The notes under the pieces are model-generated. The model saw only the letters and a list, made by a program, of their open reading frames with translations, was not told the DNA's origin and did not search any database. From Ceratodon purpureus (lineage: Eukaryota > Streptophyta > Bryopsida > Pseudoditrichales > Ditrichaceae): DNA of 64,000 nucleotides. Shown here in pieces: positions 11,342-49,730 of the stretch; the stretch's first letter is position 1; every line of letters begins with the position of its first letter. A program made the translations under genes and the position numbers. The stretch lies in assembly GCA_014871385.1 (NCBI GenBank), contig CM026426.1, positions 72,861,573 through 72,925,572 of the forward strand, given 5' to 3'.

Positions 11342-11372
<31 letters not shown>

Positions 11373-11434
11373 CCCTTCTTCTTCCCCATTTTCCTTCATC
11401 TTTCTTTTACTCTTTTATTAAAATAACTACCCAT

Positions 11435-24442: not shown

Positions 24443-24877
24443 CCGTGACCTTCATCATCAGTGTGAGCCGCTACATTGGAGCAGGGTACCAACTGCCATC
24501 CACACTCCCACCCCTACATGTGTCTTCAAGTGAAATTTGCTCTTTGAAGTAATAAATAACATTGTAATGGTGCCACTTGAACTGCTGCCAAATGTACTGT
24601 TGCCAATTGAAATGTTGCAAATTGTAAACAAAATTGTGAAAAAATAGTTGTGGCCATGGGGCCCAATGCGGCAGTTATAGGGCCAAATGCTGCGGTCGTG
24701 GGGCCAAAAGCGGCAGTCTTGGGCTCAATGGAACGGTCATGGGTAGGCAGCAATGGTCATGGGTAGTTATTTTAATAAAAGAGTAAAAGAAAGATGAAGG
24801 AAAATGGGGAAGAAGAAGGGTTTTTAAAAAAAAAAAAAAAAAAAAAAACCAAAAAAAAAAAAGACAAAAAAACTATA

Positions 24878-24902
24878 AACATCATATTCATTAAAATGGG
24901 AC
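24878..24902 (+). repeat. Left terminal inverted repeat of the element
   Basis: 25 bp, matching the right end with one mismatch at position 6 (T here, C opposite). Confidence 0.85.
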
Positions 24903-24939
24903 ATAAACGCATTTGTGGGACTAAGATCCCTAGTTTCTA

Positions 24940-25100
24940 GGATGTCCCTTACTATGAGCTAAATCTCTTTCCTAGTCAACAATGAGCTAAATAATTGCTA
25001 ACATTGAGCTAAGTTGATATTGCTAGCATTGAACTAAGTTAATATTGCTAGCATTGAACTAAGTTAATATTGCTAGCATTGAACTAATTGAGTTGGTGTA
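24940..25100 (+). repeat. Subterminal half-site repeats
   Basis: Five to six direct repeats of about 31 bp built on 'gagctaa' or 'gaactaa' with 'attgctagcattg'. They look like half-palindromes of the element's main motif and lie just inside the left end, where transposase binding sites are usually found. Confidence 0.5.
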
Positions 25101-25501
25101 ATCATTATTGTGAATTTTTTTCTTATTTTCTTTTTTTGAAGCAAAATTATTGTGAAGTTTTCCAAAAATTTGAGAAAAGACTAAGTGGCGTTTGTTAGTG
25201 TCTCACTTTCCACCAACTTACACAAGTAATGAAAAATACGATCATGGATACAGTAGATCAAAATTCCATATTCATATTGAGCTCATTGTGAGCTAAAAGG
25301 ACTGAAGAGACAATTTCCACCATAGTAAATGAGGTAGACAAACCCAGTGAGAGTCAGGTTAAGTAAAAGGCAAACATTCCAACCATTACTATGAAAAAAA
25401 TAAATATATCGAAATGATACAGTACAGTATCAGTATTTTTATTGGAAATATTAATAATAAATGAGCAATGACATGGTATAATTGAGTTCGGTACTAGAAA
25501 T

Positions 25502-26297
25502 CTAAACTATAGATTTCTTCCCTTCCTTTGCTTTCAGGTCCTCCAAGGCCTTCATTATGTCGCCTCTCCGCGAAACGGTCGTAGGGTATGATTCAGCGAA
25601 AACTGAAGTCTTTGTTTGTAGCCGAAGAATAGGATGAGCTAAGGAATCTCTCATTTGTCGCTTAAGTGTTGCTAGATCTGGACCTGTAGAAGAACAAGAA
25701 CGGGTAGGCTGGAATCTAGATAATCTCGGGGGTTTGGGAGCAACAGTTGGCACTGTTGGTATTCCCAAGCATGAAACATCACGTTCTCCTATATTTGGCT
25801 CACGGTTAGGCATGGTTCTAGAAATATTTCTACCTACCGATCTAGTCTCCAGAATTTGCTCACTGTGAACAAAAGGCTTATTGGCAATTTCTACCCTAAG
25901 AGGTAATATTTCAGGTGCAACAACCTCGTACAGTTGTCTTTGAGGGATCATAGACTTCTGAGGTGCGGGAGAAGTAGAACGTTCCCGCCTAGGTGTAAAC
26001 CTCCCAACCGATTTCAAAGGGGAAGGTGACGACACTGTGATTCGACCACCTACACTGCTAGGAGGACTGTTTACTACGTCTTGCTCCACATCTCCCCTTG
26101 AAAAATCTATAGCTGCAGAAGCAGCGTCTGTGGCAGAAAACAACAAGAAGGGCTTCGAATATTGTTGAACTCCGAGAGCCTCCCCTTCAGATATAGAGCA
26201 TGTACCAACGAACTGCCCACTTGAAATATTCGACGTTAGGCCGAAAGAATCACCGAACCTGCAATCAGACCCACCAGAAATAGAGTGCAGTGGCTGA
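25502..26297 (-). CDS. Possible exon or small gene downstream of the giant gene
   Basis: An open frame after an acceptor (CATGTTCAG|CCACTG, near 26297) runs 265 codons to a stop at 25502. It is Ser/Pro/Arg-rich with a charged end (LEDLKAKEGKK) and no recognised domain. It could be a last exon spliced from the FCP1-like exon through a weak donor (GGG|GTTAGC near 26508, phase 0 on both sides), or a separate gene lacking its first exon. Confidence 0.4.
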
Positions 26298-26481
26298 ACA
26301 TGAAGAACAATTACACATCGGTAAGACAGGCAAATTAGTATTACGACAAATTGCAAACCTTACAAAATCTGATTTCAACCGGTAGAGAAAAACAATAACA
26401 TTTACATAAACATTTACAAAAACATTTACAAGTTTGTCCATAGTTTAGCTCACTGTGAGCCACCGTCTTCTCAATCATTGT

Positions 26482-29400
26482 TCAATTTTGCCGAGGATTG
26501 CTAACCCCGCAAACATCATAAACAGTACCCACATTCCTTGTAGAAACGGCCATTCCCTCTAAAATATGGTTGAATAGTGGATCATCGTCGGACATTGGGG
26601 GGACTCCTATTCTGTTTGACTCAACATAATTTCGAAGATTTCCATTAGCAACCACCTTGACCAAATTGGACAACCATGGAGCCAAAACTGACATTAGGTA
26701 GTCATCTTTGTCATCCTTTTCGATCCAGGACTTTAGGAAAACAGCATTGCCAGTCTCATTACAGATGCTTTTCTCCGGACTATCATCAATTAGAATCGTG
26801 TTGTTCACGTTGTAGATACTACCCGCTCCAAAAAGGGTTGAAGAGAACGTTTTCAAAAATATAGGCTTATCTCCGTCAGGGTATTTCAAGTAGGTACGGC
26901 GAGAAGTTTGAATTCGTTCGCAATCTTCCTGACTAAGAACAACCGAAGGCATGGGCAGCCCAGTGAAAAGATATTTGACAACATCCATCGCTGTCGAATT
27001 CTTCATTGAACTCCAGACCAAAATATTTGCGAAATCGTTCACAAATGCTATGAAATCCGAGAATCGGGGCCGAACATACACTGCCTTCGGTCCAACAATA
27101 GTGGCAAACTTCGGACTATGAACAGAAAGGTTTATGTGGTTTGTCACTGCGTCCTTCAACCCAAGACGCCTCTCGACGCATTTACATAGTATACCATTAA
27201 TGTCCAAAACAATGTTCAGCCACTTCTTGGATGTTACACCCTTAAGACCTCGTGGAAACTGTGTAGAAGCTTCAGCCTGGAAAATCAATAAAACAAAACA
27301 AATGGCGTTACCTGTTGAAATGCAGATGGACGAAAAGGCGAGGAGAATTTGTACTTTTGATTTTGACAATTGGAACGCAATTCCACGTCGCTAACCACAG
27401 ATTTAACAGCAACCGGGCGGTGAACATGGTCAGTTGCTTTCAGCTGACCATCCATTGAAGCACACCAATTTAAACAAGTCAAATTCAGCAGATATTCAAA
27501 TTCTTCTACTAATCAATGAAATTAACATCTTCACTTTGCTCACTGTGAGCTAAATAAAATGCCACGATAGATTAACTTAAAATAATGAATATTAAAATTT
27601 TATAAAATGTGTATAGTCACACTTACATATATGTAAATACAGTCACTTATCATTCGGCTAAGACCTCTACTTTAGAATAAGACAGTGGGGAAGTAATACT
27701 CAGAGCTTTCAGTTGATATATATCTCAGAGGTGCATACCTCGGGACAATCATCACTTTGCTGACTCTCCAGGTGAATCCTCTGAGCGTCTGGGAGAGAGA
27801 GACTTGCCCCTGGAGACTCCTCGTAGTCCACCAACTCTTCATCAACCGGATCGACAAGTGCTTCGGGTTCCACCAAACAGTCTGAGGGCCCTGAAGTCTC
27901 TTTTGGTGTAGGGTTGGCCGACAGGTTACGTGCTCCCTCCAGGTCCACCGTGGGGCTCGTTGCAGGTGTGACTGGGATAACGGAGAATTCATCACCGCCA
28001 CTACCAATGTCATCATCGTCATTTTTCGGGCCTGATGACATTGGAGTCATCGGTTTGCAAGGGCTCGTAATGACTGCGTCCGGAATCTCCTCTTCGACCA
28101 CAACGGCATTCTCCACCGTAGTATCCGCAGTGGCCGAAGCATCACAACCTGGATAATTAGAAATACAAGCGTCAGCTACTTCTTTACGATTTTGCTCAGT
28201 GTGAGCTAAATCATTTAATACAGGCCTAGATGATCACCAAATGCAATTCATAGTGTGTTCAGTCCTTGAGCACGTTGATAATTCTTTACTGTTACAATCT
28301 GTCATGAAGTTCAAATAAGTTGATCCAGATTTCTAACATTCTGAATGACATTAAAAACTAATGTGCCTAGTTCTAATATTTCGTCGATTTGTACGAATGT
28401 GAGAACTTAGAAGATCCCACACACTGCTTCGAAATGGGACAAAATTTGAGCTACTGCCTCCTACCTATTGCAACAGGATCGTACATCAAAGTAATGTAAT
28501 CAGAGGCGTAATATTTTGTGCCTTTGATGGTGAAACCAGTACTGTCAACTGGAATAAATGGAAATCTCCAAAAATATGAAAAACGTAAACAACTACGTAT
28601 CTGGTAGCGTTCAGAAACGACAATCATACCGAATCTATAACAAATACAGTGAGACACTTAGAGAACCATACATCCAGGTTTTTCATACTCGATCATGCCA
28701 TACTATCCATGTTTTCTAGATTAAATTTGTGACTATTTAGTCTTTACCTTTAGGACTTTCAACTGCATCACTACAGGGCATCACAGTGGGCTTCACGATG
28801 GCGGTCTCCTGCATTGGAGCAATGATTTGACCTCGCATCTGCAACAACATCATACGCATTTCCTGCATCTCTTTATCCCTCTCCCGCATCTCTCTGTCCC
28901 TCTCCCGATCCTTCTCCTCCTGAATCTTGAGGAGACTCTCTGCCCTCTCCTTGGCCAAACGAGCCTCTTCAACAATAAGCCGAGTTGCCTCGGCTTCCCT
29001 TTCCCTCTTCTCCTCCTTCTTCTTTCTCTTCTCCTGGTTATACTGGAACCAGTCCACGTCCCTCTTCGAAACCGGTGCTGCCGGATGAGGTGCCTTCCCC
29101 GCAGCATTGAAGACTTCCTCCCCGTCATCTGGTACCAACTCCTGGCGGACAACTACAGGATGGACCACTGCTGTAGAGACGACAGCAGGATGTACCACCG
29201 GTGCCCTCGCTACAACCCTGGCCTCTGAATTACTTGGGTCTTCATCGCTGCCATCATCATCGGAGTCGCTGAGCAAAACCAACGGAGTCTCCGTTACTGT
29301 CTTCACACTGCTCTCCCCGCCTCTATTGCCCTCTACAACATCGTCGGGAACTCCTTCATCCGCTCCCCCCTCCACGTTCTCCTCCTCTTCCATGTCAACA

Positions 29401-32400
29401 TCTTTCGAAGTTGACCCACCGACTCTGATTTGAGCCTGCTGCTCTGACCCAAACTCCTGAACGAGGCGCCGACCTAGTATAGAGTTCTGTTGGCGAAACC
29501 TAGTCTCACGTGGTGAAGAATGACGGCTTAGTGGTGAGGAATTTAGCTCACTGTGAGCTAAACTTGATGACCGAGTATCTGGCTGAGGTGTGGTGGGCAA
29601 AGTCTCGATTCCAAGAGTCTCTTCGTCAAATCCTGCCCCAAGAGTCTCTTCGTCAAATCCTGCCCTAAGAGTCCCTTCAATCGGTTCCTCCTCCAGAGTA
29701 TCGTCTTCTTCCTCTTCGACTATCTCATCTGCCTCATCATCCGAACCCGATTCTACAGTGACGTTCCTTTCAAATTCATCACTCTCAAGAAACTGCTGCC
29801 TCTCTGGCATTGGCTCGTCCTCCTTCGGTAAGTCATAGATTGAATCCTCATGAATGAAGTCATTCATATCGAGGTGGGGCACTAGCTTAGCCATATCCTT
29901 GTAGCAGTTTTCGAAGTTGTGATCAATAATCCCGTAATAAAACATACCGTAGATCTGGACAGAACTAACATACTTAATTAGACTGAAAATATAATGAAAC
30001 ATAAAGCTCACAATGAGCTAAAATTCATGCTGACTCTACAATGACAAATGTATATGGGATATACAGATTCAGTAACTATACAAAACCGAATATCATTCAA
30101 ACTAGAGATTAACCCAAATTTATGCTTGCTGTCTCAGACCTGAATTTAGCTCACTATGAGCTAATACAGTCACTACTAACTAAGTCAAAATTTAGACATA
30201 AGAAAAATAAAGTAGATACTACTTACCCGAGCAGCTAACATGCATTTTGTTCCACTGAACACCCCCCAGAAGTTCTCGCCAGGTAAGCAAAATGTCTTCA
30301 ACAGTTCGATGTAGAATTCCATCCGCAGCTCCCGAGCATTCAGTCGTAGGTGAGCTTCCTTGTACAATCCGTACACTGTGTAATAGTTTGTATTAGGAGC
30401 TTTATAGACTGACTTCACCTTCTTTCTGTCGTCGCTCCTACCTGCACGCACCAGAAATACTAGGTACAACTCATCCTTCCCTGAGTTTCGAGTAGTATGA
30501 TCATTCAGGCGTTCGTTCTTCGCAGGGATGTATCTAGATGGAATCACCTCGTATTGTTTCATGTACTTCTCTCCGTATGCTATTGCTTGGGCATTTCTAT
30601 GGTGTGAAGCACTAATCCAAACCCAGACTTCTGGATCGGAGACAGCTGGAGATTTCAGAAGAAGAAGCTTCTTCATAAACGGCTTAAAGAATGGGTTCTC
30701 GACAGTGTCATCCTTGGTGGAATGGCCCGGGGTATCTCGCAAATCCAGTAATGCCAAACCAAGTCTCGGTTCACTATCATAGCGCCACTGCTGCCCGAAC
30801 TCCATTTTAACAGCATTGAATAACCGCGTACGAATCCTTCCTTTCGGGGCAACGAAATTACCTTTCACCTCCAGGAACTTCTTGAAGAACGGAAAAACAT
30901 TGGGCCATTTATCTGTCAAATCACGTGACCTCTTAAACATCCCCTTCTTCTCAGCACGAAAACCATAAAATCCCTTATCTGGTCGGTCTAGAAGGACATT
31001 CAATGTCGCGCTGGAGATACCGTGTTCATCCTTCCACTCGTGCCACTTTTCTCGGTTGATGGTCATGTCCTTGTTGCAAAGGCCAAGAGATGGCATAATG
31101 TCATGGAGTTCTTGGATGCATATCCGCTTCCGCTTCTTCTTGGCCATCCAGTCGCCAGATGAGTAGTGATGTGGCAACACCGTGCCACGAGTTTTGTGTA
31201 CGGATACCTTGGGGTATTTATACTGCCAATTCTTCGTCAGCATCAGTAAGTGGGTTACCAATGACCTCGTCTCCTCCTCGGTCATGAAGCCCATACCACG
31301 GAAGAAGCTGCGTTGGAGCTGAAACGACTTTCCGCCTTTGAAGCCCTTCTTCTGATTGAACCTCTCGCAAGTCTCCGGATCTATCAACTCTCCCGTGCTG
31401 TGCTTCGTGATGAACTCCTTCCACAGATTAAAATGATCGTCGGGAGCGGTGATGATAACCATCTCGTTCTTAATATCAGCCGGCCCCTGCACTTGCTTTC
31501 CGTCCTTGCTGGGGTCGATGTTCTGGAATCGCTTTATAAGCAACACGACGAATTTCTACAAAATGCATACTTTTAGATTAGAGATATCATGTTTCATTTA
31601 TTTATGTATAGAAATAAAATGCACTTGTCCAACTATTTCGCTATACAATCCATCACTACATGGAACTGTATCACTATAGGAACCCCTGAACATAACAGAT
31701 TACAACCATAGTCACCCAGAAACTATTCAATCTGTTGAATCAGACAGTTCTACAATTACAGAAATCCGTTAACCATACAGCAAACCATAGAAGTAAGAGT
31801 TCATTAATTCATAAGAGAAATAACAAATTTAGCTCACTGTGAGCTAAACGCGACCTCTGTATTCATTGTAAACTCAAGCAGTTGATTTAACACACAGTGA
31901 ACCAAATTGAAAATAATCACTCCACACAATCATCTTGAAGAAATCTCGTGTTAGTTTCATGTTCACTTACCTGATATTTCTTGGTGTTGTATAGGGCTCC
32001 ATTATGGCGGTTGTTGTCCTTCATATTAGTAGGTTTATCTTGGCTTATCCAGACATTCCGCGCACTAAGTATGTTAGTACCCCATGTCGGTTGCGCGTGA
32101 TTTAGATGGTTGCACATATTATAGAACTCCGAGATTCTGACCAGAATCATAGCTTCTTTGCTCCACACAATGTATGCGTCCCAGTACTCGAGCTCTTTCT
32201 TCCTCTTCTCCCCGCAACCTGAAATCTGTAACTCCTGCGAAGCTACTATACTATGTTGACCATTGATAATCATAAATTTCCCATCTTTAATCTCCCCCCA
32301 AGACTTCGGCTTCTCTGGCAGGAGTTCTAGTTTGTCTGTCACTGGCATCAGACAGACCTTTTGTCTCTGGTTAATATCTCCCATCCTTACAAGCTCTTCT

Positions 32401-33419
32401 TTAACCGATTTAACGATCTCTCTCTCTAGGTCTCGGACGATATACTCATCCTTGGCAATGTGGCACTGTTTCACATTAACTGGGAACGTGGTCTTCATGT
32501 CGAAGACATATGCGGATTCACAATCATCCCAGAATGTCTTCTGTATCTCTGTGAATTTCTGATAATCCGGCACGTCCTTGTCCTTAGCCTTAGCCTTCGT
32601 CTTCTTTGTTTCTTCTGTCTGCGTGAGAACAGATCCAGAGCTCCCTGCCTTCCCTGTCTGCTTCCGTTTCTTCCTTGAGGTGGAGGCTTCTTGAATATCA
32701 GTGGCCGGGCGCTTGCTTCCACGTGAACGCGAAGGTGCTGGAATTGGTGATGCGCGTGGGTGTTGAATGCTCCCTCTTGATGGAGCAGCGGAGTCCTCGC
32801 GCACAGCAACTAATGCTGAGCTCTGTAACGGAACTGTGCTGATCTTGGAGGCGGATTTGTCAGTTATATAGTGAGTAAGTGTCAAGAAAACTCGATTCAG
32901 CCTACGCCCAAAGGATACGGCACTCAACTGTGTTCCATCTTCATTTTTCCAGGCGGTCTTCTCTAGGTCGAGTATAAGGTCTTCGCATGATGTTCCAATC
33001 ATGCTTTTAATTAGCGGATCCCCGTCAAATTGAGCATGTTCAGCACCGACTTCGATTACTAACGAGTGGACGTGTGACAAGTCACACTCGGAATCTCGGT
33101 CTACAGCACCGACCACGAGTACAATGTACTTCCCATGATGTTCCTCGATAACCTTCAGACGCTCATGTACAGACAGGTCCAGATACCTAGGACTGTTCTT
33201 TTCTTTATGCAAGATTCTCACAAACTTGTGGTACCGGGACACGGCCAGAGACCAACCCTCGACTTCGGACTTGAACTGCCACAGGGATCCGTAGGAATTC
33301 TCCAACGACGGCTCAATGAAAGGAGTCGCTGGATCGGGGTTCTTGAACCTCTCTAGGAACGGATCGAGGTGACTCATGTCGTATCCATCTGGCATTAGCA
33401 CTGGGGTATCCATCGTCAT
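26482..33419 (-). CDS. Giant ParB-like / DNA methyltransferase-like / FCP1-like protein
   Basis: Seven exons fit in phase: 33419-31971, 31555-30227, 29954-28748, 28548-28465, 28148-27739, 27443-27312 and 27276-26482, 5,406 nt, about 1,801 residues, no internal stop. The ATG follows a leader-intron acceptor (TTTCAG|ATG). Exon 1 holds a Ser/Arg/Lys-rich stretch (about 215-290), then a ParB/Srx-like segment with NGQHSIVAS at about 386-394. Exon 2 ends in a beta-class methyltransferase-like core: LALLDLRDTPG (about 755) where DPPY is expected, and FSGTK (916-920) where FxGxG is expected, continued across the intron by YGMFYYGI. Exon 3 is a Glu/Arg coiled coil with acidic runs. Exon 5 is acidic. 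Exon 7 is FCP1/NIF-like: DING (1562-1565), RPRFSDF, WSS and DDSPEK. ParB-methyltransferase fusions are known from phages and bacterial mobile elements. Both catalytic motifs are altered, so activity is uncertain. Confidence 0.7.
29541..29562. repeat. Element palindrome inside coding exon 3
   Basis: A full copy of the palindrome is translated as part of SLAHSELN in the giant gene. It keeps the frame. Single copies also lie at 25279, 26443, 27536, 28192, 30004, 30143 and 31828, mostly in introns or just 3' of the gene. Confidence 0.85.
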
Positions 33420-34954
33420 CTGAAATCATTCACACAAAACTTTATTAGTTTAACGAGTTTCTCGATTATGTATCTCTTGTATCAATCCACATCAATCATC
33501 AACATGGAGAATCAGACAATATGACCAGTATGAATAAAATTAGCTTACTGCAATGGAAATATTGAAGGTTGACTGCAAGATTTAGCTCACTGTGAGCTAA
33601 ATTCGTACAAATAAGTATGCATCACTACTCTCGAAGTTCTCTAGCTTTTAGTAGATCTCAAATCAAATTGAGCGACTGTTAGTACATAACTTCTTGAGTC
33701 AGGCAAAAGTCATCAAAGTTTATCGTACAAGTGCATTGGATTTAGCTCACAGTGAGCTAAAGAGGTCATAAGGGCATATAAATTAGTTTGTTGAGACCAA
33801 ACATATCGTTTAGGTTCATATGTTAGCGTACATTGATCTTTGTACGGAAAGTAACACTACGTTTTAGCTCACAGTGAGCTAAATCCACTAAGTTACACTA
33901 CGATTTAGCTCACTGTGAGCGAAATCTTCAAAGTTGCACTAGTATTTAGCTCACAGTGAGCTAAATCCACTACGTTGCACTACGATTTAGCTCACTGTGA
34001 GCTAAATCTGTTAAGTTGCACTGGAATTTAGCTCACAGTGAGCTAAATCCACTAAGTTGCACTATTATTTAGCTCACTGTGAGCTAAATCTTCAAAGTTG
34101 CACTTGAATTTAGCTCACAGTGAGCTAAATCCACTAAGTTGCACTACGATTTAGCTCACTGTGAGCTAAATCTCCTAAGTTGCACTGGAATTTAGCTCAC
34201 AGTGAGCTAAATCCACTAAGTTGCACTACGATTTAGCTCACTATGAGCTAAATCTTCTAAGTTGCACTGGAATTTAGCTCACAGTGAGCTAAATCCACTA
34301 AGTTACACTACGATTTAGCTCACTGTGAGCTAAATCTTCTAAGTTTCACTACAATTTTGCTCACAGTGAGCTAATTCTTATATCTATGTAAAGAATGTAG
34401 TTCCCCGGGACCCACAACTAATACAGAATATTGTAAAACAATGCAGAACTTGTGAAAACGTTACTCTATGAAAACAAATTTTGCAATCCGTATGTAGTAA
34501 ACATATGCTGTAGTAGTGGGACAGAATTGTATAGAAGAAAAAAACAAGTTGTCTACTTTTTTAAAACACACGGATAAATCCCTTCAGTTTGATTGTTAGG
34601 TATAGAGAGAACAAAAATATGTGAAGTCCAAATTTATAATGACATTACACTCAAATCGATTCGTAGAAACATAACAGAATTAAATCATTTACATTCACAA
34701 CAGTCAGTGTCCTCAGCAATAAAGTTACCCGAGGAGGAGAATTCATACAAATAACAAATACATATTCATTTCAAAGTTCCTAGAAATTAGCGCATATACT
34801 TATGATCCACAAACGACAGAATACTCAACATTCTGAACATCCTAATTTAAGCATTAGATAAGGCTACCCTTTATCACTGTAGTAAGTCTATTCTATACAT
34901 ATACAAGTTCATATGAAGGTTAACGACAAAGTCTGCAGCAAGTAAAATGCTTAC
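33420..34954 (-). other. Leader intron of the giant gene, holding palindrome array 1
   Basis: A non-coding leader exon ends at 34955 (GAAGAGCG|GTAAGC) and the intron ends directly at the start ATG. Its acceptor side contains the palindrome array. Earlier leader exon parts may extend to about 35.7 kb but were not fixed. Confidence 0.5.
33580..34375. repeat. Palindrome array 1, about 15 copies, alternating centre
   Basis: The near-perfect palindrome AGCTCAC-A/T-GTGAGCT with TTT/AAA flanks occurs at 33580 and 33740, then 13 times between 33862 and 34375 at a spacing close to 41 bp. Copies alternate A and T at the centre, so each 82-bp pair has one copy in each orientation. Spacers repeat 'ccactaagttgcacta' and 'cttctaagttgcactgga'. 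Spacing near four helical turns would put the sites on one face of the DNA. Confidence 0.9.
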
Positions 34955-35018
34955 CGCTCTTCTCTAGCTCTGACGTCTACAGGTCCACGGTAACACACGC
35001 CTTGGATTCCTTGAAGAT

Positions 35019-36480
35019 TGCAACCTGCATTACGTTGAGAAAGGAAATGCAACGACTTCATCAGCCAACAACAGGGTTCAGTAAACATAGGAGGCACCGA
35101 AAATAATACTTATCTAGAACCGACAACGAAATGTTGTGATACCAAAACTAAAAAACAAGAAAAGAGATGACAGGATCAATGCAACAGCTTACAGGTCTGT
35201 AAAATGGGAATTTATCAAGGAGACAACGTCAAAAGAGAGGCTGGAAACCCTGCAGAGGACTGAAATAACAAAGTGATATTCAGTTCCACGCAAGAAATAT
35301 GCATCACGCATAATGCACAAAACCGACATTGTCACACAAACCAAAAGCTTGAAAAACAAGTAACAATTGTCACACAAAAAAACAAGCGTAACAAACAGGT
35401 GCAACAAGTGTTTCAGCAAACCGAAGGTTACACAACAAACATACATCGAAGTGTAAATCTACAAGCTACAACAAGAATTGTAACCAACGACGATGTTACT
35501 CTCACCTTACACCCAAACAACAAAGCACCCACAAAGACACACAGTCTCTAGGGAACTACGAAAATTCAAGAACAGAATCGAACTCACCAAAACAGGCCGT
35601 TTTGTCGACTGAAGCGGCGCGTCCACCTCGTCTCCAGAGATGTCTTGAACTAACAAATAGAAAAACAACAAGGTGGACGTTGAAACTGCACACAAAACTC
35701 GATCAGAGTAGATGAAACCTAGGGTTCGAGGGCTAAATTCGCTGTGATCTAAATTTTAGAAAACGTAGAGAGCCGACGGCGCTTGCAACTATCACCAACA
35801 ACTACCCTGTAACAAAACAAAACTGGAGTACTACAACTACAACAAAGTCTAGAAGAAACCACCTAATCGACAGTATGATCTACAAACCCTAAATGCGAAC
35901 CAGGTAGCGTATCGCGATTACAACCCAGGCACGCCATGTCTCCATATTGAAAGAGACGACGAAGGAAGCTCACGAGGGAAGAAGGCCGCGGGAGTTCGGG
36001 AGATCATGTCGTGGGCTGTTCACGAAGTGATTTCGTGGGCAGCCCTGCAAACGAATGGCGGCTGCGGGCAGGAACCCTAGCCATAGAGGGCATGCCACGT
36101 GCCATTGACGTAGTTCTTCTGAGCCCTCATTAATGACTCATCTCGGTTATAAGGTGACTACTCACCATAATTATACGTATTTTTTATTTTTTTTAATTTG
36201 AACATGTGCCATATATTATATTTATTTTTAAAATTTAGAATGACTTTAAAAAATCAATTAAATTGGGAACCTCTTAAATAGCATGCATTAAATGAATTAT
36301 TTTTGTGACAGTTAATGAACGTACTTTTCTTATAAAAATGAAATTTTAACTAAAATATGAACTTGTATACTCTACTAACAAAAAAACGCTATATAATGCT
36401 ATAATTACGGTTATTCTACTTTTTTCAACACTTTAAGCTAAAATGTTTGCAATACTTTACTTATTCACGCAATTAAATAA
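35019..36480. other. Probable 5' region of the giant gene
   Basis: No coding sequence. 35570-36080 is GC-richer than its surroundings and probably contains the minus-strand promoter or first leader exon. One degenerate palindrome lies near 35733 (ctaaattcgctgtgatcta). 36170-36480 is AT-rich. Confidence 0.4.
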
Positions 36481-36489
36481 ATAAAAACT

Positions 36490-38560
36490 AGTAATATTTA
36501 AAATTCAATCGAAGAAGAGTAGAAGAATAAAAAGCGAAAAAGAGGAGATAGATAGGGAGAGGAATAGAAGGATGAAAAACCAACGGAAAGGATGGATGAC
36601 CAATAAAGGAATAAAAAAGATGAAATGATAGAATAGGAGACCAATAAAATATTCAGAAAATATTAATATTAGAAGATCAATGGTAGTAGAATAGAAGAAT
36701 TAAAAGAAATTAAAAAAAAATGAGATAGATGGGTAGGGGAATAGAGTGATGAAAAACCAACGGAAAGGATGGATGACCAATAAAGGAATAAAAAAGGTTA
36801 AAGGATAGAATAGGACTTTTTCATAAAAAAATATTAAGAAAATAAAACTATTTTGAAATCAATGGTAGAAGAATTGAAGAAGTAAAAAAAAAAAAAAAAT
36901 GATGGATAGGGAGCGGAATAGAAGGATGAAAAACCAACGGAAAGGATGAGGAACCAATAAAGGAATAAAAAAGGTAAAATGATAGAATATAAGACCAATA
37001 AAATATTAAGAAAATAATACTATTTGAAAATCAATGGTAGAAGAATACAAGAACCAAAAAAAAAAAAAAAAAAAAAAAAAAAGATATATAGAGAGGCGAA
37101 TAGAAGGATGAAAAACCAACGGAAAGGAGAGATGACCAATAAAGGGATAAAAAAGGTAAAAGGATAGAATAGGAGACCAATAAAATATTAAGAAAATATT
37201 AATATTAGAAAATCAATGGTGAAGAATAGAAGAATTCAAATAAATTTAAAAAAATTGAGATAGATAGGGAGGGGAATAGAAGGATGAAAAAACAACGGAA
37301 AGGATGGATGACCAATAAAGGAATAAAAAAGGTTAAAGGATAGAATAGAAGACCAATAAAATATTATGAAAATAATACTATTTGGAAATCAATGGTAGAA
37401 GAATAGAAGAACAAAAAAAACAAAAATAAAAAAAAAAGATATATAGAGTGGCGAATAGAAGGATGAAAAACCAACGGAAAGGAGGGATGACCAATAAAGG
37501 GATAAAAAAGGTAAAAGGATAGAATAGGAGACCAATAAAATATTAAGAAAATATAGAAGGATGAAAAATTGAGGGAGTGGATGGATGACCACTTAGAGGA
37601 TAAAAAAGGAAAACACATAGAATAGAAGACCAATAAAACTATAAGAAAATACAATTATTTAAAAATCGCTGGAAGAAGAAGAGGAGTAAAATAAAAATAT
37701 CAAATAAAAAAAAACTAGTTAAGGTGAGGAATATAAAGATGAAAACATAATGGAAACGGTGGATGACCACTCAAAGAATCAAGAAGGAAAATATAAAGAA
37801 TAGAAGACCAATAAAACGACTAGAAAATACTAAAGTTTAAAAATCATTTGAAGAATAAAAAGAAAGGGATGAAATAAAGAGAAAAAGAAATAGAAGGATG
37901 GAAAACTAAGAGAAAGGATGGATGACCAATAGAAGAATAAAAATGTAGGAGGATAGAATAGAAGACCAATAAAATATTTAGAAAATGATAATTGTAAAAT
38001 GGTCAATGGAAGGATAACAAGATTAGAAAAGGCTGAAACGGTGAGAGAGAGGTAGAGAAGGATGAAAAATTGTGAGTCGGGAAGGATGACTAGTGGTCCA
38101 CAGAAATAAAGAGATATACTACAAAGGATCCCAATCGCAAAATAGAAAGAGAATAGGATAGAATAGATGCCCAATATAATAATTAAAGTGAATTTAAAAA
38201 AATAAAAATAAAATAAATGGAAGAATAGTAGACGAAAAAAATTTGATAAAATAGAGAGGGAGAGGAATGGAATGTAAGGTTGGATGACTCATGTAAGAAC
38301 AACTGAAAGAGAGGAAACTATAATTGATGACCAAGGAATTAATAAATTTAGGATAATGGAATACAATAGATGACTAATAAAATAAAAAATAAAATAAAAA
38401 GGAAGAGATTATAAGAATAAATACTTAATAAAATAGGGTGAGAGACGAATAGAATAATGATAAAGAATTCGACACAAGTGATGACCAAAAATTCAATAAA
38501 AGAAGTGCAAAAATTAAACAACGAATATTAACCGGAAAATATAATTTTTGTAGAATTAAA
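36490..38560. repeat. Central minisatellite, period about 178 bp
   Basis: Units carry 'gaatagaaggatgaaaaacc', 'aacggaaaggatgga', 'tgaccaataaaggaataaa' and 'agaccaataaaatatta'. Clear unit starts lie near 36543, 36720, 36900, 37083, 37257 and 37437; more diverged units follow to about 38560. The array lies between the two divergent genes. Minus-strand frames within it are repeat-derived. Confidence 0.8.
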
Positions 38561-40470
38561 CGAGGAACTTATGAAATAAGCATAGATATTATATTTTAAG
38601 GATTATGTTCATGATTTATTGAGCAAAGGTTTCACTAACATGGAAATAATTATCTAACTATGGGATTCCCTATTGTAATAATGGAATAAATGACTTTAGG
38701 CACTATGTGTAACCTTCGCAAGCAAAATTTTTGGAAAACAAATTCGGATCAACGTCTTAGATGAAAATGTAATGATGTTTATTTCTAATTCTTATCGTAA
38801 TGAATTGCACAATTCTCTTATGCCCTGTCCTTTCATATACAATATAATAATATTCATAAAAATTATACAAGAAATTTCACAATTAAAATAGGAAATGAAG
38901 AAGTACTAGGAATTTGAACTTGTATAAGTAGTTATAAATTCCATCAATATTAGAAAAAATTAGACTTACTATCAAGAGCAAGAGCAGTGTCATGGTACGT
39001 GTCCAAACGAGAACATTTCGCATATCTATCGAAAAAATACGGCACTTCCATGCAATATGTTATAATTTATAGATTATATATACTTTATATATTCAGAAGG
39101 CACGCGTAGTATACAGTATTGTAAATTTATGTATGAACTAATCTCTGTAACATGAAAATTGAATGAAACAAAGTCAATTAACAAAAGAATATCTTCACCC
39201 AAAAAAGTTGAAGACTTTTTTTTTACCATGCACTATAATCTGTAAATGACGAGCGTAACAGGTATAGGGTACAAGATATAGGACCTAGGGTATAGGGTAA
39301 CTAGGGTTTAGGGTCTAAGGTCGGGGTTCAGGGTTTTGGGGCGTTGATGCATTTCATCAATACAACTGTAATCTATTGTTTTCTGTAGATTTAAATGGAA
39401 TATGTGTGTACTGACCTCGTCTACCCTATTGCTCTGTCTGTTCATATTCATGAGGTTTGCCACATGTAGTGTGTTAAATGATTATTCACGTATCACATAT
39501 TATGTAAACTAACACATTAATCATGGTTATATTATAATTATTTCCCATAATAACGATGAATTGAAATTGTGGTTATAAACATTTAAGTTTGGTAGAAGTG
39601 GAACGGTACTAACTTTGTTATATTTGCTTGCAATGTAAAGTATCGAATAAACCGTAATGGATCTCTAACTTCTTAGGAAGAAATATTTTAAAATTTTGTT
39701 TTTTTGTAAAAAATAAAATGACTTTAATTTTAAACGTGGTTAATTTCTTGAAATTATTTAATTCCATTCATGTTCCCTTTTATTAATAGTTCAATTATTT
39801 TTGAATCTTTTGGAAATCCTATATCAAAGAGTATCGTATTTTTTCCCCTGGATTTTCCCACAGTATTATTTTATTATCTAGCAGTAATTGCAACATGATC
39901 TTTTATTTTTATACAAGTTAATCATTTAGACCTCTATAGTTCGAGTATGTGATGTTTTAGGCATCGACGGTTTATAATACAACTAATAGAGATCCACAGA
40001 AACGTTTCCCAGGTTCATCATATTATTTCCCGCCAACATACAACAGATCCATCGTTTCCCCATAACTAATTTGCTATCTAAACAGATCCGTAGTGACTTA
40101 TTTGTCATAGTATCTTGACCTCACAAGTTCCCCACTTTAAAGAGCATAAACCAAGAAGGTCATTATGTCATGAATGCAAAATTAGGCCGGATCTACTAAT
40201 AAGAACCTCACATCACGAAAGTCTCTCGCAGCACAACAATGCCTCTCTCTTTAATTAGGCTTAGTCGTTGAAAGCATCCATGTTGAGGTTCTGCCTACTC
40301 CATAGCGTGGAATAAAGTTGTGCAAAGGTACCGCCGCTTAAAATGGTGTGGATAACAATGGGAAAGGACAAAGTGGATGTGTGCTGCATCTCCGTAATAG
40401 GCCAACAGTGACAATTTGATAAAAGGAATTCTTCTTTCCCGCCTAAATGGGAATGTCGACGGTTCCCGCT
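38561..40470. other. AT-rich spacer with telomere-like patch
   Basis: No gene is supported. 39255-39345 holds degenerate telomere-type motifs (agggtttaggg, atagggt repeated). 40440-40470 leads into the GC-richer first exon of the plus-strand gene. Confidence 0.45.
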
Positions 40471-40771
40471 TTTTTCAGAGAGCCGTTTGAGAATGCTTGG
40501 GGTCCAGGGTCATCACTTCGTGGGTCCTCACACTCTCGCCTTTCTTTCCTGAGACTCTACTTGGAATCCGAGTGACGCGGTGTTTTGGTCTTCTAGAATT
40601 CTCTTCCTGACTGTGAGATTGCAGATTTCGTAGCAGCATTCTGTTTGTGTTCTCAGCTTTCAGGCCCCTGGTAGACTGAGATCGAAGTCCCTGGTTGCGT
40701 CTGTATTGGGTTTGCTGTGCTGATATGAATTGACAGTCGTTTCTACAGAGCATCGAGGGACTCCTTATTGG

Positions 40772-42392
40772 TGAGTGTCTATGCATACAGACTTGTTGGT
40801 ACCGTTTCAAATTCATTCGGTGATTGCCTTTGTGAATACCTTAGGTTCTGTAATCATTGTATGGAATTGTGTTGGACCTATTTTGGTTTCTGTTTGGTAT
40901 GTAAGCGTATACCGTAGGTTGTAATGATCTGGATTATAAATCAGATTCAAGGGTCTTGACAGAATTAGTGAGTGTACCCAATTGCTTTCAGAATTAATGT
41001 ACGAATTCGTTGATTAATTTCCTAAATTTTCGGGAAATTCATTACGAGTTTTACTAACATATAACTTTCAATGCTGAATTCTTCTTATTGTATTTGACAT
41101 ATATATGTATTGCTTCTTGCGATCTAAGTTTGACACACTGGGCGCTGAATCTATGTATACGAAAGTGGTGTTTCCGCTGAATTGGAGTTCGTTTACAGTG
41201 GGCTAAATTGGAATTAGCTCACAATGAGCTAAATTGGACTTAGCTCACTGTGAGCTAAATTGGACTTAGCTCACTGTGAGCTAAATTCGACTTAGCTCAC
41301 CGTGAGCTAAATTCGGATGAACTCACTTTGAGCTAAATTAGACTTAGCTCACTGTGAGCTAAATTCGACTTAGCTCACCGTGAGCTAAATTCGACTGAAC
41401 TCACTTTGAGCTAAATTAGACTTAGCTCACTGTGAGCTAAATTGAACTTAGCTCACTGTGAGCTATGTTGCATTTAGCTCACTTTGAGCCAAATCTGGCA
41501 TATCTCAGAGATAGCTCAATTTCATTTACCTCACAGTGAGTTAACTTTGATTTAGCTCACTGTGAGCTAATTTGGAGTAGACTAAGAGTATTAGGATATG
41601 ACTGAGGCAGTTAACGAAGACATGCAAATTGGATTATAATATGCTGTGTTTATGGTAAAACAAAAGTAAAGTACCCTGTGATACACTACGGTTCAGTATA
41701 TACAAAGAAGATACTGCAAATAATCAATTAAGATGAGTTCCCAAATAAATTGTATTGCACGCCAACCCACAATAAATTAGGTGGGAGGAAGAAGTATATG
41801 TTAATAGAAGAAACTGCTAAATATGAGATTGAATGTGTTTTTTAAACGTGTAGTCAGACGTCATCTGGTCGTAGTGATTTTAATTAAACTTAGCTCATAG
41901 TGAGCTAAATGAATTTAGTTCATAGTGAGCTAATTTGAGACTAGCTTATTGTGAGCCAAGTAATCGTTCGCCTATTCCTGTTATCTTTCAATTCAACAAC
42001 AGTAAGCTCTCAACAACTTTAGTCAATACGGGATAATGGTAATCTAACATACGGGGAACATGATACCTGGATTGAAGATTGTTCATTAAGTTTTAGTAAT
42101 TGTGTGAATAAGCTACATACATGAGCAGTCGACTATTATTGTATTAAACCTCCATGAGAAGTACAGAATTTAGCTCACAGTGAGCTTAATTATATATGTT
42201 CAAATGTACGCGAATGATATTGTATGCTTGCATTCTCTGCTGTGATTTTTAGTAACACAATATATGGAAGTTCTAGACTCTGTAGTAATCAATATATTAA
42301 GTTTAACCAAAGCGAGAAGTATATATTAAGTTTGTAAGCTCCTGAGACTTATTTACTGCCTCTAACCCCTTCGTGATATTAATTCTTTCCAG
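40772..42392 (+). other. Leader intron of the transposase-like gene, holding palindrome array 2
   Basis: A non-coding leader exon ends at 40771 (TTATTG|GTGAGT) and the coding exon begins at 42393 (TTTCCAG|GTTTCG). The array at 41196-41600 and weaker copies at 41885-41960 and 42172 all lie in this intron. The layout mirrors the leader intron of the giant gene. Confidence 0.55.
41196..41600. repeat. Palindrome array 2, about 13 copies, spacing about 26 bp
   Basis: Copies of AGCTCACTGTGAGCT and single-base variants (CACCGTG, CACTTTG, CACAATG) are separated by 'aaattggact' or 'aaattcgact'. The later copies are wider apart and more diverged. Confidence 0.85.
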
Positions 42393-42426
42393 GTTTCGAA
42401 GAGCGTACCTGGTATCTCATTCTCGA

Positions 42427-45246
42427 ATGGAGTCATTCTCAGGCGCTGACGAGTTTCTGGCACCACAGTTTCCAACCTTACCGGACGATGTCGTTACTTG
42501 CGAAGGATTGCCTCGGTCGTCTTGGATCACAAAAGCTGTTACGCTAGTGAACGAGTATGGCTCTATTGTTGCCAAAGGAATTTGCCACAGCATCGACTCA
42601 GACCTTGTCATCGGAAGTGATGGAGCTCCGCTTGGAGATGATCAAGTAGCTGTTCAGATTGCAGAATCCTTGTGTGAAGATGATGTACCATCGGAATGGA
42701 TGTTTTCATTACGTGCTTGGCATATCCGGAATGTATTCGTAAATGGTGCATCTCTCTACGATCACGATCAAGTGGCTATCTACAATGCTGCTGTTTCTTC
42801 AATGCGGGGGAGGAAGCGTGTAGGAGTACGACCTTATGATAGTTCCAGAGTCCAGAGGGTTCCAAATCACCTTCCGAAGGCAGAGATGAAGTTATCTCCT
42901 GAGGCTATCGCTTCTGTATCCAGCGAAAGATGTTGTAGGTTGAACTGTGTTCAGTTTTATCCACGACTAAAGATTGAAGCCCTACGAAATCAGTTCTGGA
43001 GAGATGGCACTGTGTACTTCAAGAAGCACACTCAACTTGATGTTCATAGGCAAATGCACACTGACGTCGCTGGGAATCGCGTCGTTACACTTGAAGGTAT
43101 TGATGTATGTCAAGTTGCTTGGTACAAGATACTTGGAGTATCGCGCACTAGCTTTTTCCGGCACCAAAGCCTTGCTGAAGTAGGTGTAAGAGCAGAGCAT
43201 CATGGAAATCTGGGGACTAAAAAGCCTCGTACTTACACCGTTCAAGCAAAAGCAACCTTGGGTTGTTTGCTTGAGAGCGTCGCAGATCAGATGCCCCATA
43301 GATCAAGAACCTTGGAGAATGGAGAGAAGGTAGTGTCAATGGCCCTTCCACCATCATGGAAATGGAAAGACTCTTTGCCCCAAGTGAATATAGTGAACGG
43401 TCAACTGGGGCTGCGGAAGGTTTCCCTCTCAGGGATCAGCAATATCAGGCGGCGATCCTTCCCAGAGTTTTCAGTGAAGAGACCAGGAGATAATTTTGCA
43501 CGTTGCGGTACATGTGATAAACTAAAATCGTTGAAATTAGCCAGTACGAAAGGTTCAAGAGCTGCGGATTTATGGGGAATGAAACTCCAGGAACACCTCG
43601 CTGCGCAACGAGCGCACAGAGAGTTGTACTACGCGAATCGATACAACTCTATCACAGAGCCTGACAATGTTGTCACTGTGATTCATGATAAAATGGATCA
43701 CTCCAAAACTGCGTCCCCTGCGTACTCTCACAAGAACAAGGCCACTGATTCCTATTTTAAGTTACCGTTGCAAGTGACTGGAATGATTGCTCACGGACAT
43801 GGTGATATACGATATGCTCACTATGGTTTGGATATATATCCTAGTGACTCAAATCACACCGTAGGGAGTCTTGCTAAGCTCTTACGTGACCTTGAGTCTA
43901 CACCAATGGCATGTTCAGGAGAGTTGTTTTCTGGTGATCGCATTGCACCTCTCTTTGAGGCCGTTTTGAATGGAGCCGACATTTGCAGGTCATCCCTTCC
44001 TCCGATTCCAAGAACAGTTGTCCCAGCAAAGCCTCTTCCTCCAATTCTAAATGTCCAGCTAGACAATGCCTGCTCTGATAATAAAAACAGATATATGTTG
44101 TGTTTTTTTTCTCTTCTTGTGGCTCGAGGTATCTTTCGAGAGGTTTATGTGAACTTCATGCTTGTTGGACATACGCATGATGATATTGATGCTCTGTTTG
44201 GGCGTTGGAGAATGAAGCTTAGGAAAAATGACTACCCTACGATACCTTTGCTCATGAAATCGTTTATGGATGCCGAAACGGAGCCTGTTATCCCTCACTT
44301 TATTGAAGAAGTGCCAGATTTCAAAGGATTTATTGAAGGTCATATTGCTTCAGGAGATGAGGCTTTGGAAGGACATACCAATGCACAACAATTCAAATTC
44401 TATAAACATGCCAATGGATGGCCGATGATGCAGTATAAGATTGTTTGCACCGATAGTGACTGGCTTCCAAAGGAGAATGGTGGCATTAAGTTGTGGAGTG
44501 AGCTTGCTGATGGAAGGCCAAGCTTGCCATTAGGGAGTCCAAATGCATTACCAGCGCAGTGCATGAAGAACAAGGACGAGATCGTTAGGGGAATCGGAGG
44601 TTTTATCAATCATTGGGATACCATGGCCAATGAAGACTTGTCAGGCGAGTTTCGGAGAAGAAATGAAGGGATTTCACAGTATTGGAAGGGGGTGCATCAG
44701 GCACTTACAGAGGATATTATATCGCCTTCTACGTTGAGGGATGGGTTCTGGCCGCTATCTCGGTTTGCTCCGTCAGCTGAAGATGAGTACCTTGATGACG
44801 GCACCGTGCGTGACGCTTTCGGTATAGATGAGCCCTTCATCGGGCAACACCGTGATAGACCAAACGCATCATTTCGGGTGGCTCGTGATGTTTTTGAGGG
44901 ATATTTTCTTATTGTACGCCCTGCTGATGATGATTCACGACCCTTCTGGGTAGCTAGAGCAATGTCGAATCCTTTTGAAGACTCAATTAATCATCCCAAT
45001 GCTATTAAAGTCCAGTACTGGAAACCAGTGTCTACCAAGGTAGATGTCGTAGAGTGTTATGTCGGATGGAACTCTGGAAGATCCTTCCTATGGGAAGCAG
45101 ATGAGGATCACACCCCTGAGTGGATTGATACCGATTCACTTATGACTAGTTGGAAATCAAAAATTAAACCTGGGAATCTAAATCCAAAAGTTCGTATTCC
45201 TGTACTTCAAAGAAATGTTATCTCAAATAGTTTGGTGAGGTTCTAG
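42427..45246 (+). CDS. Transposase-like protein, DUF7869 type
   Basis: One uninterrupted coding exon of 939 codons from ATG 42427. A second in-frame ATG at 42373 lies before the acceptor at 42391-42392, so it is intronic. An N-terminal part of about 170 residues is followed by a Cys segment (CCRLNC) and R-x3-FW, a helix-turn-helix-like stretch (YKILGVSRTSFFRH) and a CGTCDKLK zinc-binding motif. The core has RNase H-type acidic positions: HDKMDH (D421, D424), QLDNACSDN (D546) and GHTHDDID (H582, D585, D586, D588). This set fits DUF7869-like proteins of mobile elements in plants and animals, by memory of the family. As the only transposase-like gene in an element with terminal repeats, it probably drives movement. 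The frame is fully open. Confidence 0.75.
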   Translation: MESFSGADEFLAPQFPTLPDDVVTCEGLPRSSWITKAVTLVNEYGSIVAKGICHSIDSDLVIGSDGAPLGDDQVAVQIAESLCEDDVPSEWMFSLRAWHIRNVFVNGASLYDHDQVAIYNAAVSSMRGRKRVGVRPYDSSRVQRVPNHLPKAEMKLSPEAIASVSSERCCRLNCVQFYPRLKIEALRNQFWRDGTVYFKKHTQLDVHRQMHTDVAGNRVVTLEGIDVCQVAWYKILGVSRTSFFRHQSLAEVGVRAEHHGNLGTKKPRTYTVQAKATLGCLLESVADQMPHRSRTLENGEKVVSMALPPSWKWKDSLPQVNIVNGQLGLRKVSLSGISNIRRRSFPEFSVKRPGDNFARCGTCDKLKSLKLASTKGSRAADLWGMKLQEHLAAQRAHRELYYANRYNSITEPDNVVTVIHDKMDHSKTASPAYSHKNKATDSYFKLPLQVTGMIAHGHGDIRYAHYGLDIYPSDSNHTVGSLAKLLRDLESTPMACSGELFSGDRIAPLFEAVLNGADICRSSLPPIPRTVVPAKPLPPILNVQLDNACSDNKNRYMLCFFSLLVARGIFREVYVNFMLVGHTHDDIDALFGRWRMKLRKNDYPTIPLLMKSFMDAETEPVIPHFIEEVPDFKGFIEGHIASGDEALEGHTNAQQFKFYKHANGWPMMQYKIVCTDSDWLPKENGGIKLWSELADGRPSLPLGSPNALPAQCMKNKDEIVRGIGGFINHWDTMANEDLSGEFRRRNEGISQYWKGVHQALTEDIISPSTLRDGFWPLSRFAPSAEDEYLDDGTVRDAFGIDEPFIGQHRDRPNASFRVARDVFEGYFLIVRPADDDSRPFWVARAMSNPFEDSINHPNAIKVQYWKPVSTKVDVVECYVGWNSGRSFLWEADEDHTPEWIDTDSLMTSWKSKIKPGNLNPKVRIPVLQRNVISNSLVRF

Positions 45247-45261
45247 ACCCTTGAAGTATAA

Positions 45262-45835
45262 TTCATTTAGCTCGATGTGAGCTAAATACTACGGTGCTCT
45301 GAAGTTTAAGTATAATTCATTTAGCTTGATGTGAGCTAAATACTGCAGTTCTAGGAAGTTCAAATAGAATTCATTTAGCTGGATGTGAGCTAGATACTAC
45401 GGTGATATGAAGTTAAAATATAAATCATTTAGCTCGATGTGAGCTAAATACTTCGGTGCTCTGAAGATTAAGTATAATTCATTTAGCTTGATGTGAGCTA
45501 AATACTGCAGTGCTCTGAAGGTAAAGTATAATTCATTTAGCTTGATGTGAGCTAAATACTACGGTGCTCTGAAGTTTAAGTACAATTCATTTAGCTTGAT
45601 GTGAGCTAAATACTACGGTGCTCTGAAGTTTAAGTACAATTCATTTAGCTTGATGTGAGCTAAATACTGCAGTTCTAGGTAGTTAAAGTATAATTCATTT
45701 AGCTTGATGTGAGCTATATACTATTGTGCTATGAGTTAAAGTTTACTTCATTTAGCTAGATGTGAGCTAAGAACTACGGTGCTATGAAGTTTAAGTATCT
45801 TTATGTAAGCTTGATATGAGCTGAATCGTAGGACA
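45262..45835. repeat. Palindrome array 3, 11 copies, period about 56 bp
   Basis: Directly 3' of the transposase-like gene. Units carry TTTAGCTTGATGTGAGCTAAA with spacer 'tactacggtgctctgaag'. The left half of the palindrome is altered (CTTGATG or CTCGATG in place of CTCACTG) in every copy, so this is a distinct subfamily with only the GTGAGCT half kept. Confidence 0.85.
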
Positions 45836-46477
45836 ACTTCTTTGTATAATGAAGTTTGTCACATTAGGAGGATAAGTCGTTACTATTTGTATGTTGTAAA
45901 CGTTATTGGATTATATTATGTGCACTATGATTTTTAGACAAACTGCTGTGATATGAGGGCAGAAACTGTCTAATTTGTACATCATTTTTAAGCTTCAAGG
46001 TTGTGAAGTTTAATATTAATTATAAATTCCAGACAGTATACTGCTCACATGCAGTTCAAATATGTTGTGTTGTCGTGGAAGACTTTATATTCTCTAATTT
46101 TATTATTACAGAGTCATTTCCCATTCATGATAACATCGTGCAAATTGCCATTCTACATTTGTTGGAATTGTTCTAGCAACAGTCATTATGAGGAATTAGT
46201 TGACTCTGAGCTAACCCTGGAACCTCTCACACTTTACAGTGACATGTATGATATTTTGACATGCTTAAATTGCTTAAATTGCTTAAAATGTCCTATTATG
46301 AAGCAATAAGCAACAATAATTTATATTGCAACTCCTATTGTATGATGCAATGTGTAAAAAATGGTTGATTAAAAGAACACTGTATGGATTTTTGGTCCCA
46401 ATATAATGAAAGTCCCATTATAGTTGATACAATTTTAGGTCTATTTTAAGCACTATATTAATTTGGGACTTCCAAAA
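45836..46477. other. Right subterminal region of the element
   Basis: No gene is supported; the 86-codon frame at 46049-46309 ends in short repeats. GTCCC/GGGAC motifs cluster at 46395-46480. Confidence 0.4.
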
Positions 46478-46502
46478 GTCCCATTTTAATGAATATGGTG
46501 TT
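46478..46502 (-). repeat. Right terminal inverted repeat of the element
   Basis: Reverse complement of the left repeat, one mismatch. The adjacent 46380-46480 holds further GTCCC motifs. Confidence 0.85.
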
Positions 46503-49500: not shown

Positions 49501-49730
49501 TAAGAACTAATTCTTCCTTAATCATTGTGCACAAACTAACCCCATCTAGAACCATATTAAAAATTAAAGTAGTGCAACATGGCAAGAGTTGAAAACAATA
49601 TTCACAATGATAGAAAATTGAAGGAAACATTGAAGTGAACTTATCTTTTATGAGTGGATGAAAAATAGATGAATGAGAAATGAAGTTTCAGTAAAACGTG
49701 AATAAGAACTAATTCTTTCTTAATGATTTC

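Follow-up and report, generated by a model that had tools for sequence, protein, structure and literature searches.

We analyzed a 64,000-nucleotide stretch of DNA from the moss Ceratodon purpureus (the window, G000:C6:72861573-72925572, from a eukaryotic genome of 362.5 Mb in 151 contigs, with intron-like gaps) and found, at positions 24878 to 46502 of its forward strand, an autonomous cut-and-paste DNA transposon of 21,625 bp, bounded by terminal inverted repeats (TIRs) and a target site duplication (TSD). The element carries a DUF7869 transposase gene, a divergent gene with a ParB-like region and an FCP1-like domain, and arrays of a long palindrome. The genome contains three lineages of such elements, each with a palindrome of its own, which is a new finding beyond the first reading of the window. 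The explanation that we prefer for the system as a whole, with about as much doubt as confidence, is an autonomous element with lineage-specific, element-encoded site recognition, which would most resemble VANDAL/VANC among known systems.

Boundaries, target site, and empty site

The window contains an inverted duplication with a spacer of 12.7 kb, the arms of which are 99.1 to 99.9% identical outside the insertion. One arm (8126 to 11750, reverse strand) is intact, and the other (forward strand) is divided by the element into a left part at 24443 to 24877 and a right part at 46503 to 49695. Positions 8126-11317 align with 46503-49695 at 99.9% identity over 3,193 columns, and positions 11314-11750 align with 24443-24877 at 99.1% over 437 columns, in agreement with the original prediction that the right arm is split by 21,625 bp and the left arm is uninterrupted. 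Because the two alignments share exactly TATA (11314 to 11317 of the intact arm, where the empty site is found without the element), the TSD is 4 bp long; TATA and AT had both been considered, and only the former stood. The duplicated TATA, located by flank comparison, occupies 24874 to 24877 on the left and 46503 to 46506 on the right, and the TSDs fix the terminal bases of the element as AACA..TGTT. The TIRs (24878 to 24902, forward; 46478 to 46502, reverse) are 25 bp long and, as noted before, differ at one position. With its TIRs, its TSD, and an empty site in the other arm, the segment is a real mobile element, and we see practically no room for doubt on this point. The empty site in the same window also provides a clean locus for polymorphism tests.

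Copies across the genome

A genome-wide search with the window TIR, allowing up to 3 mismatches, gave 146 forward and 142 reverse matches (288), and the reversed-pattern control gave 0. About thirty inward-facing pairs were picked by eye among the 100 matches listed; 20 were taken for study, 17 of them spaced by about 20 to 24 kb and three longer. Exact 4-bp TSDs flank 21 of 22 elements (the 20 pairs, the element of the window, and a lineage-II copy described below), and their sequences differ from element to element. The mobile unit measures about 21 to 23 kb. By set, the tallies are 10/11 (read from the printed flanks), 10/10, and 1/1, the lone exception being AGAT/GGAT, which is one base off. 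Such duplications in 21 of 22 elements indicate that the insertion is not an assembly join, and the palindromes described below are absent from shuffles and reversed controls, so that an account based on an assembly join or on chance palindromes deserves almost no credence. The original prediction had named two findings that would speak against it, the lack of any second copy with the same ends and junctions created by assembly; both are excluded, the former by the further copies and the latter by their aligned flanks, which fix the target duplication at 4 bp.

The left ends of nine copies, including that of the window, are 98 to 100% identical, and one copy matches the left 9.7 kb of the window element at 99.9% identity, which points to a recent spread of this group (subfamily A). 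The transposases fall into identity groups of 99 to 100% (A), 91 to 96% (B), 81 to 86% (C), and 56% (lineage II); outside the genes and arrays, subfamilies A and C are barely alignable. Contig C6 carries 36 of 49 scored transposase rows although it makes up 30% of the genome, a rough comparison in which only the best candidates were scored and some copies account for more than one row. The size of C6 (110.5 Mb) fits a moss sex chromosome, and the family may accumulate there.

The DUF7869 transposase gene

The right gene (42427 to 45246, forward strand) encodes 939 amino acids, counted from a methionine shared with a subfamily-C copy, in a frame that is open from 42346. The DUF7869-like transposase of the original prediction was recovered by a PF25273 match with an E value of 2.9e-44, as well as by relatives and alignment, and we consider it very probable that this protein is the transposase of the element. 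The observations that bear on an RNase H-fold DDD/E transposase are this match and invariant D residues in the protein, the structure model being too poor to read a fold from. In the window copy, as had been stated, both of the long genes are open, and the full-length transposase is free of stops in 10 of 12 rows at 99 to 100% identity, the window included. Among seven A copies compared in detail, the transposase is disrupted in two (C6:8.49 and C6:85.09), which was counted against gene integrity. One copy (C6:84405833-84413354) contains a tandem of three transposase stretches, of which one is complete and the others are pieces that span residues 200 to 966.

Relatives of both proteins were sought in the host genome, as had been proposed, yielding 49 scored transposase rows and 88 matches to the ParB-like segment. 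No relatives of the transposase were found in bacterial or archaeal genomes and plasmids, and none of the transposase or the ParB-like segment in viral contigs; on these grounds a prokaryotic or viral origin was rejected. DUF7869 was detected in 0 of 14 control genomes and was absent from the literature searched.

A divergent gene with ParB-like and FCP1-like segments

The left gene, divergent from the transposase gene, reads on the reverse strand as six open reading frame (ORF) segments separated by intron-like gaps, which may make up one protein or several, where one giant ParB-methyltransferase-FCP1 protein had been proposed. Segment 1 (31920 to 33425), which has 88 matches, is ParB-like by motif reading and has no convincing Pfam match; its motif FMIINGQHSIVAS is kept in five rows and includes an INGQHS box, which we take to be akin to the ParB/DGQHR boxes (GQHS). 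Segment 2 (30188 to 31555) is methyltransferase-like by motif reading and alignment, with RDTPG / RNAPV at the catalytic motif, and lacks Pfam support. It is followed by an acidic segment 3 (28740 to 30017), coiled-coil-like by eye and with one palindrome in frame, and by segments 4 (27712 to 28233), 5 (26485 to 27390), and 6 (25505 to 26359). Segment 5 matches the FCP1/NIF domain PF03031 (E value, 1e-13). Of the three parts proposed for the giant protein, the FCP1/NIF part thus held, and the ParB and methyltransferase parts are motif readings to which neither Pfam nor PDB lends support. The catalytic motif of FCP1/SCP phosphatases is DxDx(T/V); although the NIF domain matches, segment 5 has D-x-N-G at this place, with D63, N65, and G66 invariant in 4 of 4 rows. 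Both the methyltransferase-like and the FCP1-like catalytic motifs look degenerate on alignment.

Between subfamilies A and C, the transposase has proportions of synonymous (pS) and nonsynonymous (pN) differences of 0.68 and 0.09 and a nonsynonymous-to-synonymous ratio (dN/dS) of about 0.05, and the ParB-like segment has a dN/dS of 0.07 between A and B; many other subfamily pairs are saturated. At the level of predicted coding segments, these ratios show two co-inherited divergent genes under purifying selection. Three of the seven A copies (C6:8.49, 22.64, and 70.47) carry a stop or frameshift in segment 1, which was counted against the integrity of the left gene. Subfamily B appears to be mosaic, its FCP1-like segment being near the A type (pS, 0.08) and its ParB-like segment far diverged (pS, 0.58), as seen in two different B copies (L021 and L024) compared with the window. 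This mosaic pattern suggests exchange between families.

Three lineages with different palindromes

The palindrome arrays of the original prediction were recovered: with up to 4 mismatches allowed, the palindrome TTTAGCTCAC-N-GTGAGCTAAA occurs at 51 sites of the window element, at none in 20 block shuffles of the element, and at none in the remaining window. Fifteen sites lie 5' of the ParB-like gene, including an array with 41-bp spacing at 33741 to 34375; 16 lie 5' of the transposase gene, in an array with 26-bp spacing accompanied by single sites (41213 to 42189); 10 lie near the right end, where an array with 54-bp spacing extends from 45266 to 45771; and 10 lie in the left gene region. 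Coding segments, whose exon limits are estimates, cover 41% of the element and hold 2 of the 51 sites. The palindrome at 29542 encodes the peptide SLAHSELN. All 11 A, B, and C copies, each examined by its two 9.7-kb ends, contain 40 to 55 sites. Genome-wide, exact sites number 446 (control, 0), and the 50 of them that were listed are all inside element copies.

Lineage II is represented by a copy at C12:1002455-1025740, which is 23,286 bp long and has perfect 25-bp TIRs and the TSD TGAT. It keeps the gene pair, with 56% identity to the window in the transposase and 43% in the ParB-like segment. Its palindrome is a different one, TTATCCTCGA-N-TCGAGGATAA, odd and 21 bp in length, with 20 sites in the copy and 0 in each of 20 block shuffles; genome-wide there are 151 exact sites (control, 0). 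Three sites lie in the left gene region, seven 5' of the left gene, and 10 5' of the transposase gene, so that both upstream clusters and sites within the left gene are shared with the window element, and the right-end array is not.

Lineage III is an abundant and uniform family, with a DUF7869 frame of 678 amino acids in many rows and 242 plus 226 matches to its right end. It has a homologous transposase (34% identity; E value, 2e-112) and a homologous, divergent ParB-like segment (hhalign probability, 87.9; E value, 3e-6). Its palindrome, CGTCGGC-N5-GCCGACG, occurs 20 times in one 10-kb stretch, 18 times in another, and in none of the shuffles, and its arrays are close to the right end and to the 5' end of the ParB-like ORF. 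In one stretch (L080:3701-5749), palindromes within an open frame repeat a peptide like VGCPPT. The three palindromes did not cross-occur among the lineage copies examined: the lineage III motif has 0 sites in the window and 0 in the lineage-II locus, and lineage III has neither of the other two palindromes.

Proposed role of the palindromes and alternatives

The sites are fixed within lineages and replaced wholesale between them, beside a conserved divergent gene, which argues that they are targets of an element-encoded dimeric protein. We therefore predict with good confidence that the palindromes are binding sites of a protein encoded by the element, and this protein is probably, with rather less assurance, the ParB-like one. 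The DUF7869 protein would act as a DDD/E-type transposase that joins the AACA...TGTT ends with a 4-bp stagger, and the divergent gene would yield a homodimeric ParB-like protein with the palindromes of its element as binding sites, both those 5' of each gene and those among the ORF segments of the left gene. Bound protein would keep the copies of its own family unsilenced and/or tune their expression, as VANC does for VANDAL; the protein would change in step with its sites, so that each lineage recognizes itself, and the methyltransferase-like and FCP1-like parts may serve as binding surfaces. The similar logic of VANDAL/VANC favors a role of the ParB-like protein in self-recognition, probably in anti-silencing. 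That anti-silencing is the main purpose of the palindrome system is a tentative proposal, drawn from this analogy.

Several observations weigh against this interpretation. No ParB family appeared among Pfam matches up to an E value of 10 in five members, the methyltransferase reading found no support in Pfam or PDB searches, and PDB sequence searches gave nothing significant, for the ParB reading included. Two AlphaFold2 models were unusable (mean predicted local distance difference test [pLDDT] scores of 33.6 and 40.5), and a PDB fold search with the model of mean pLDDT 40.5 returned no match at an E value of ≤0.001. The FCP1-like segment is under looser constraint, with a dN/dS of 0.22 (A/C) and 0.35 (A/B). 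The lineage-II copy has no palindrome site 3' of the transposase gene; some lineage III sites are inside coding ORFs, so that the layout is only partly shared; and lineage II is represented by one full copy and lineage III by two 10-kb stretches. To these are added the miniature elements of lineage II, which fit a role of the palindromes in transposition at least as well.

All of eight single lineage-II sites examined lie in one 256-bp family of miniature inverted-repeat transposable elements (MITEs) with lineage-II-type ends, of which there are 276 ends with up to 2 mismatches. Exact 4-bp TSDs flank 20 of 25 complete MITEs, and one central palindrome within 4 mismatches is present in 27 of 27, 20 of which had been selected by an end and not by the palindrome; the set excludes L058, which was truncated at the left end; L052 and L065, with one decayed end each, do not enter the TSD tally; and L075 and L076, which share TSD and palindrome, may represent a single duplicated locus. 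Fourteen of the 37 exact MITE ends on C1-C5 are accompanied by an exact palindrome, and 20 of the other 23 were examined, all having palindromes with 1 to 4 mismatches. Beyond TIRs and palindrome, the MITEs have little in common with the single autonomous lineage-II copy compared. These features would suit palindromes that the transposase or an accessory protein uses within the element during transposition, in the manner of the TNPA sites of Spm/EnSpm, as would the array of the window element lying 0.7 to 1.2 kb from the right end. On the other side, most sites of the window element are far from its ends, none occur close to the right end in lineage II, and all the MITEs belong to a single clonal family, which makes their retention of the palindrome one event; the palindrome is moreover kept no better than the remaining MITE sequence (0.935 versus 0.958). 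We regard a transposition role in place of anti-silencing as possible but doubtful. Several changes in the MITE palindromes, judged by eye, are from CpG to TpG or CpA, as cytosine methylation would give.

The GQHS box, which by motif reading resembles the ParB/DGQHR boxes, and the many palindromes in each element would also suit a true ParB/parS-like system, in which the protein loads at palindromes and spreads over the element as a nucleotide-gated clamp, for maintenance or chromatin exclusion. Bacterial ParB spreads from parS. We think such a system improbable here, as no profile match to ParB and, among the nine ORFs scanned against Pfam, no ParA-like match was obtained. A bolder combination, which on the present comparisons we consider unlikely, is an unrecognized superfamily in which a DUF7869 transposase is joined by a ParB-like clamp that would nucleate at lineage-specific palindromes (a parS-like “password”), spread over the 20-kb element, hold silencing at bay, and label the copies of its family; clamp and palindrome would have co-diverged into at least three pairs in one genome.

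Relation to known transposons

The VANC proteins of the Arabidopsis VANDAL elements bind motifs specific to their family and bring about a loss of methylation (PMC5735166, PMC10398659); these motifs, which vary from one related family to another, are arrayed in tandem within introns and upstream regions (PMC5735166, PMC10398659), and VANC has DUF1985 and DUF287 (PMC5735166). The present element likewise has a second gene and family-specific motif arrays that are mainly noncoding, although lineage III sites are also in coding ORFs. It differs from VANDAL in its DUF7869 transposase, 25-bp TIRs, 4-bp TSD, ParB-like/FCP1-like second gene, and long palindromic motif, and whereas anti-silencing is known for VANDAL, the present element is known from sequence alone. 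If the palindromes are indeed the address code of an element-encoded factor, they would represent a second, independent plant-transposon solution to sequence-specific self-recognition, three natural gene/site pairs in one genome would be open to comparison, and the DUF7869 domain would gain a function.

The family may already bear a name, the Lanisha superfamily, in which case only the biology of the palindromes and the ParB-like protein would be new. PMC12730594 credits the proposal of Lanisha to Maumus, McDaniel, and Carey (Repbase Reports 2020), and Carey and Maumus are among the authors of the Ceratodon genome preprint according to a passage of PMC8000587; the name thus comes from authors linked to this genome, in which the family is abundant. 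PMC12730594 describes Lanisha as EnSpm-like and places C(2)C and H(3-4)H after the second D and before the last E. In our alignments, a single CxxC is common to all three lineages and comes ahead of the presumed catalytic D residues, and beyond these residues the lineages share no H(3-4)H, a comparison that depends on an inferred assignment of the catalytic positions. EnSpm-type Transposase_21 genes are, moreover, separately abundant in the genome (the best 150 of 1,940 candidates were scored). With respect to the EnSpm-Mirage-Chapaev-Transib (CMCT) group, the 4-bp TSD is within its range of 2 to 5 bp, and the termini are AACA..TGTT instead of the 5'-CA..TG-3' stated for most, not all, of its members. 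Both Lanisha and the present element are cut-and-paste DNA transposons, their motif order differs, and they are set apart by description only. We find the identity with Lanisha somewhat unlikely; by description the element is not Lanisha, and since the comparison was by description and not by sequence, its status as undescribed is unsettled.

EnSpm/CACTA elements with their TNPA sites likewise have repeated internal protein-binding motifs, which are only predicted here. In contrast to them, the window element has AACA..TGTT ends and a 4-bp TSD, and none of nine ORFs scanned matches Transposase_21. The likeness to bacterial ParB-parS, a ParB-like box together with palindromic sites, is one of analogy, with neither profile similarity nor a ParA-like match, and ParB was not found in the related literature among the matches listed. 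In the part of PMC10045372 consulted, Ginger and some IS481EU families have 4-bp TSDs, and the ends of IS3EU, GingerRoot, and IS481EU are TA..TA, TG..CA, or TNT..AYA. Compared by ends and TSD only, the window element shares the 4-bp TSD with Ginger and some IS481EU families and differs in its ends from IS3EU, GingerRoot, and IS481EU.

Other features of the window

Ten neighboring ORFs around the element have no Pfam match at an E value of ≤0.001, and an Rfam scan of the window gave no match. In the middle of the element, an A/G-rich tandem repeat with a unit of 177 to 182 bp extends from 36470 to 37554. In the two subfamily-C copies, the half that holds the transposase includes a (TA)n-rich stretch.
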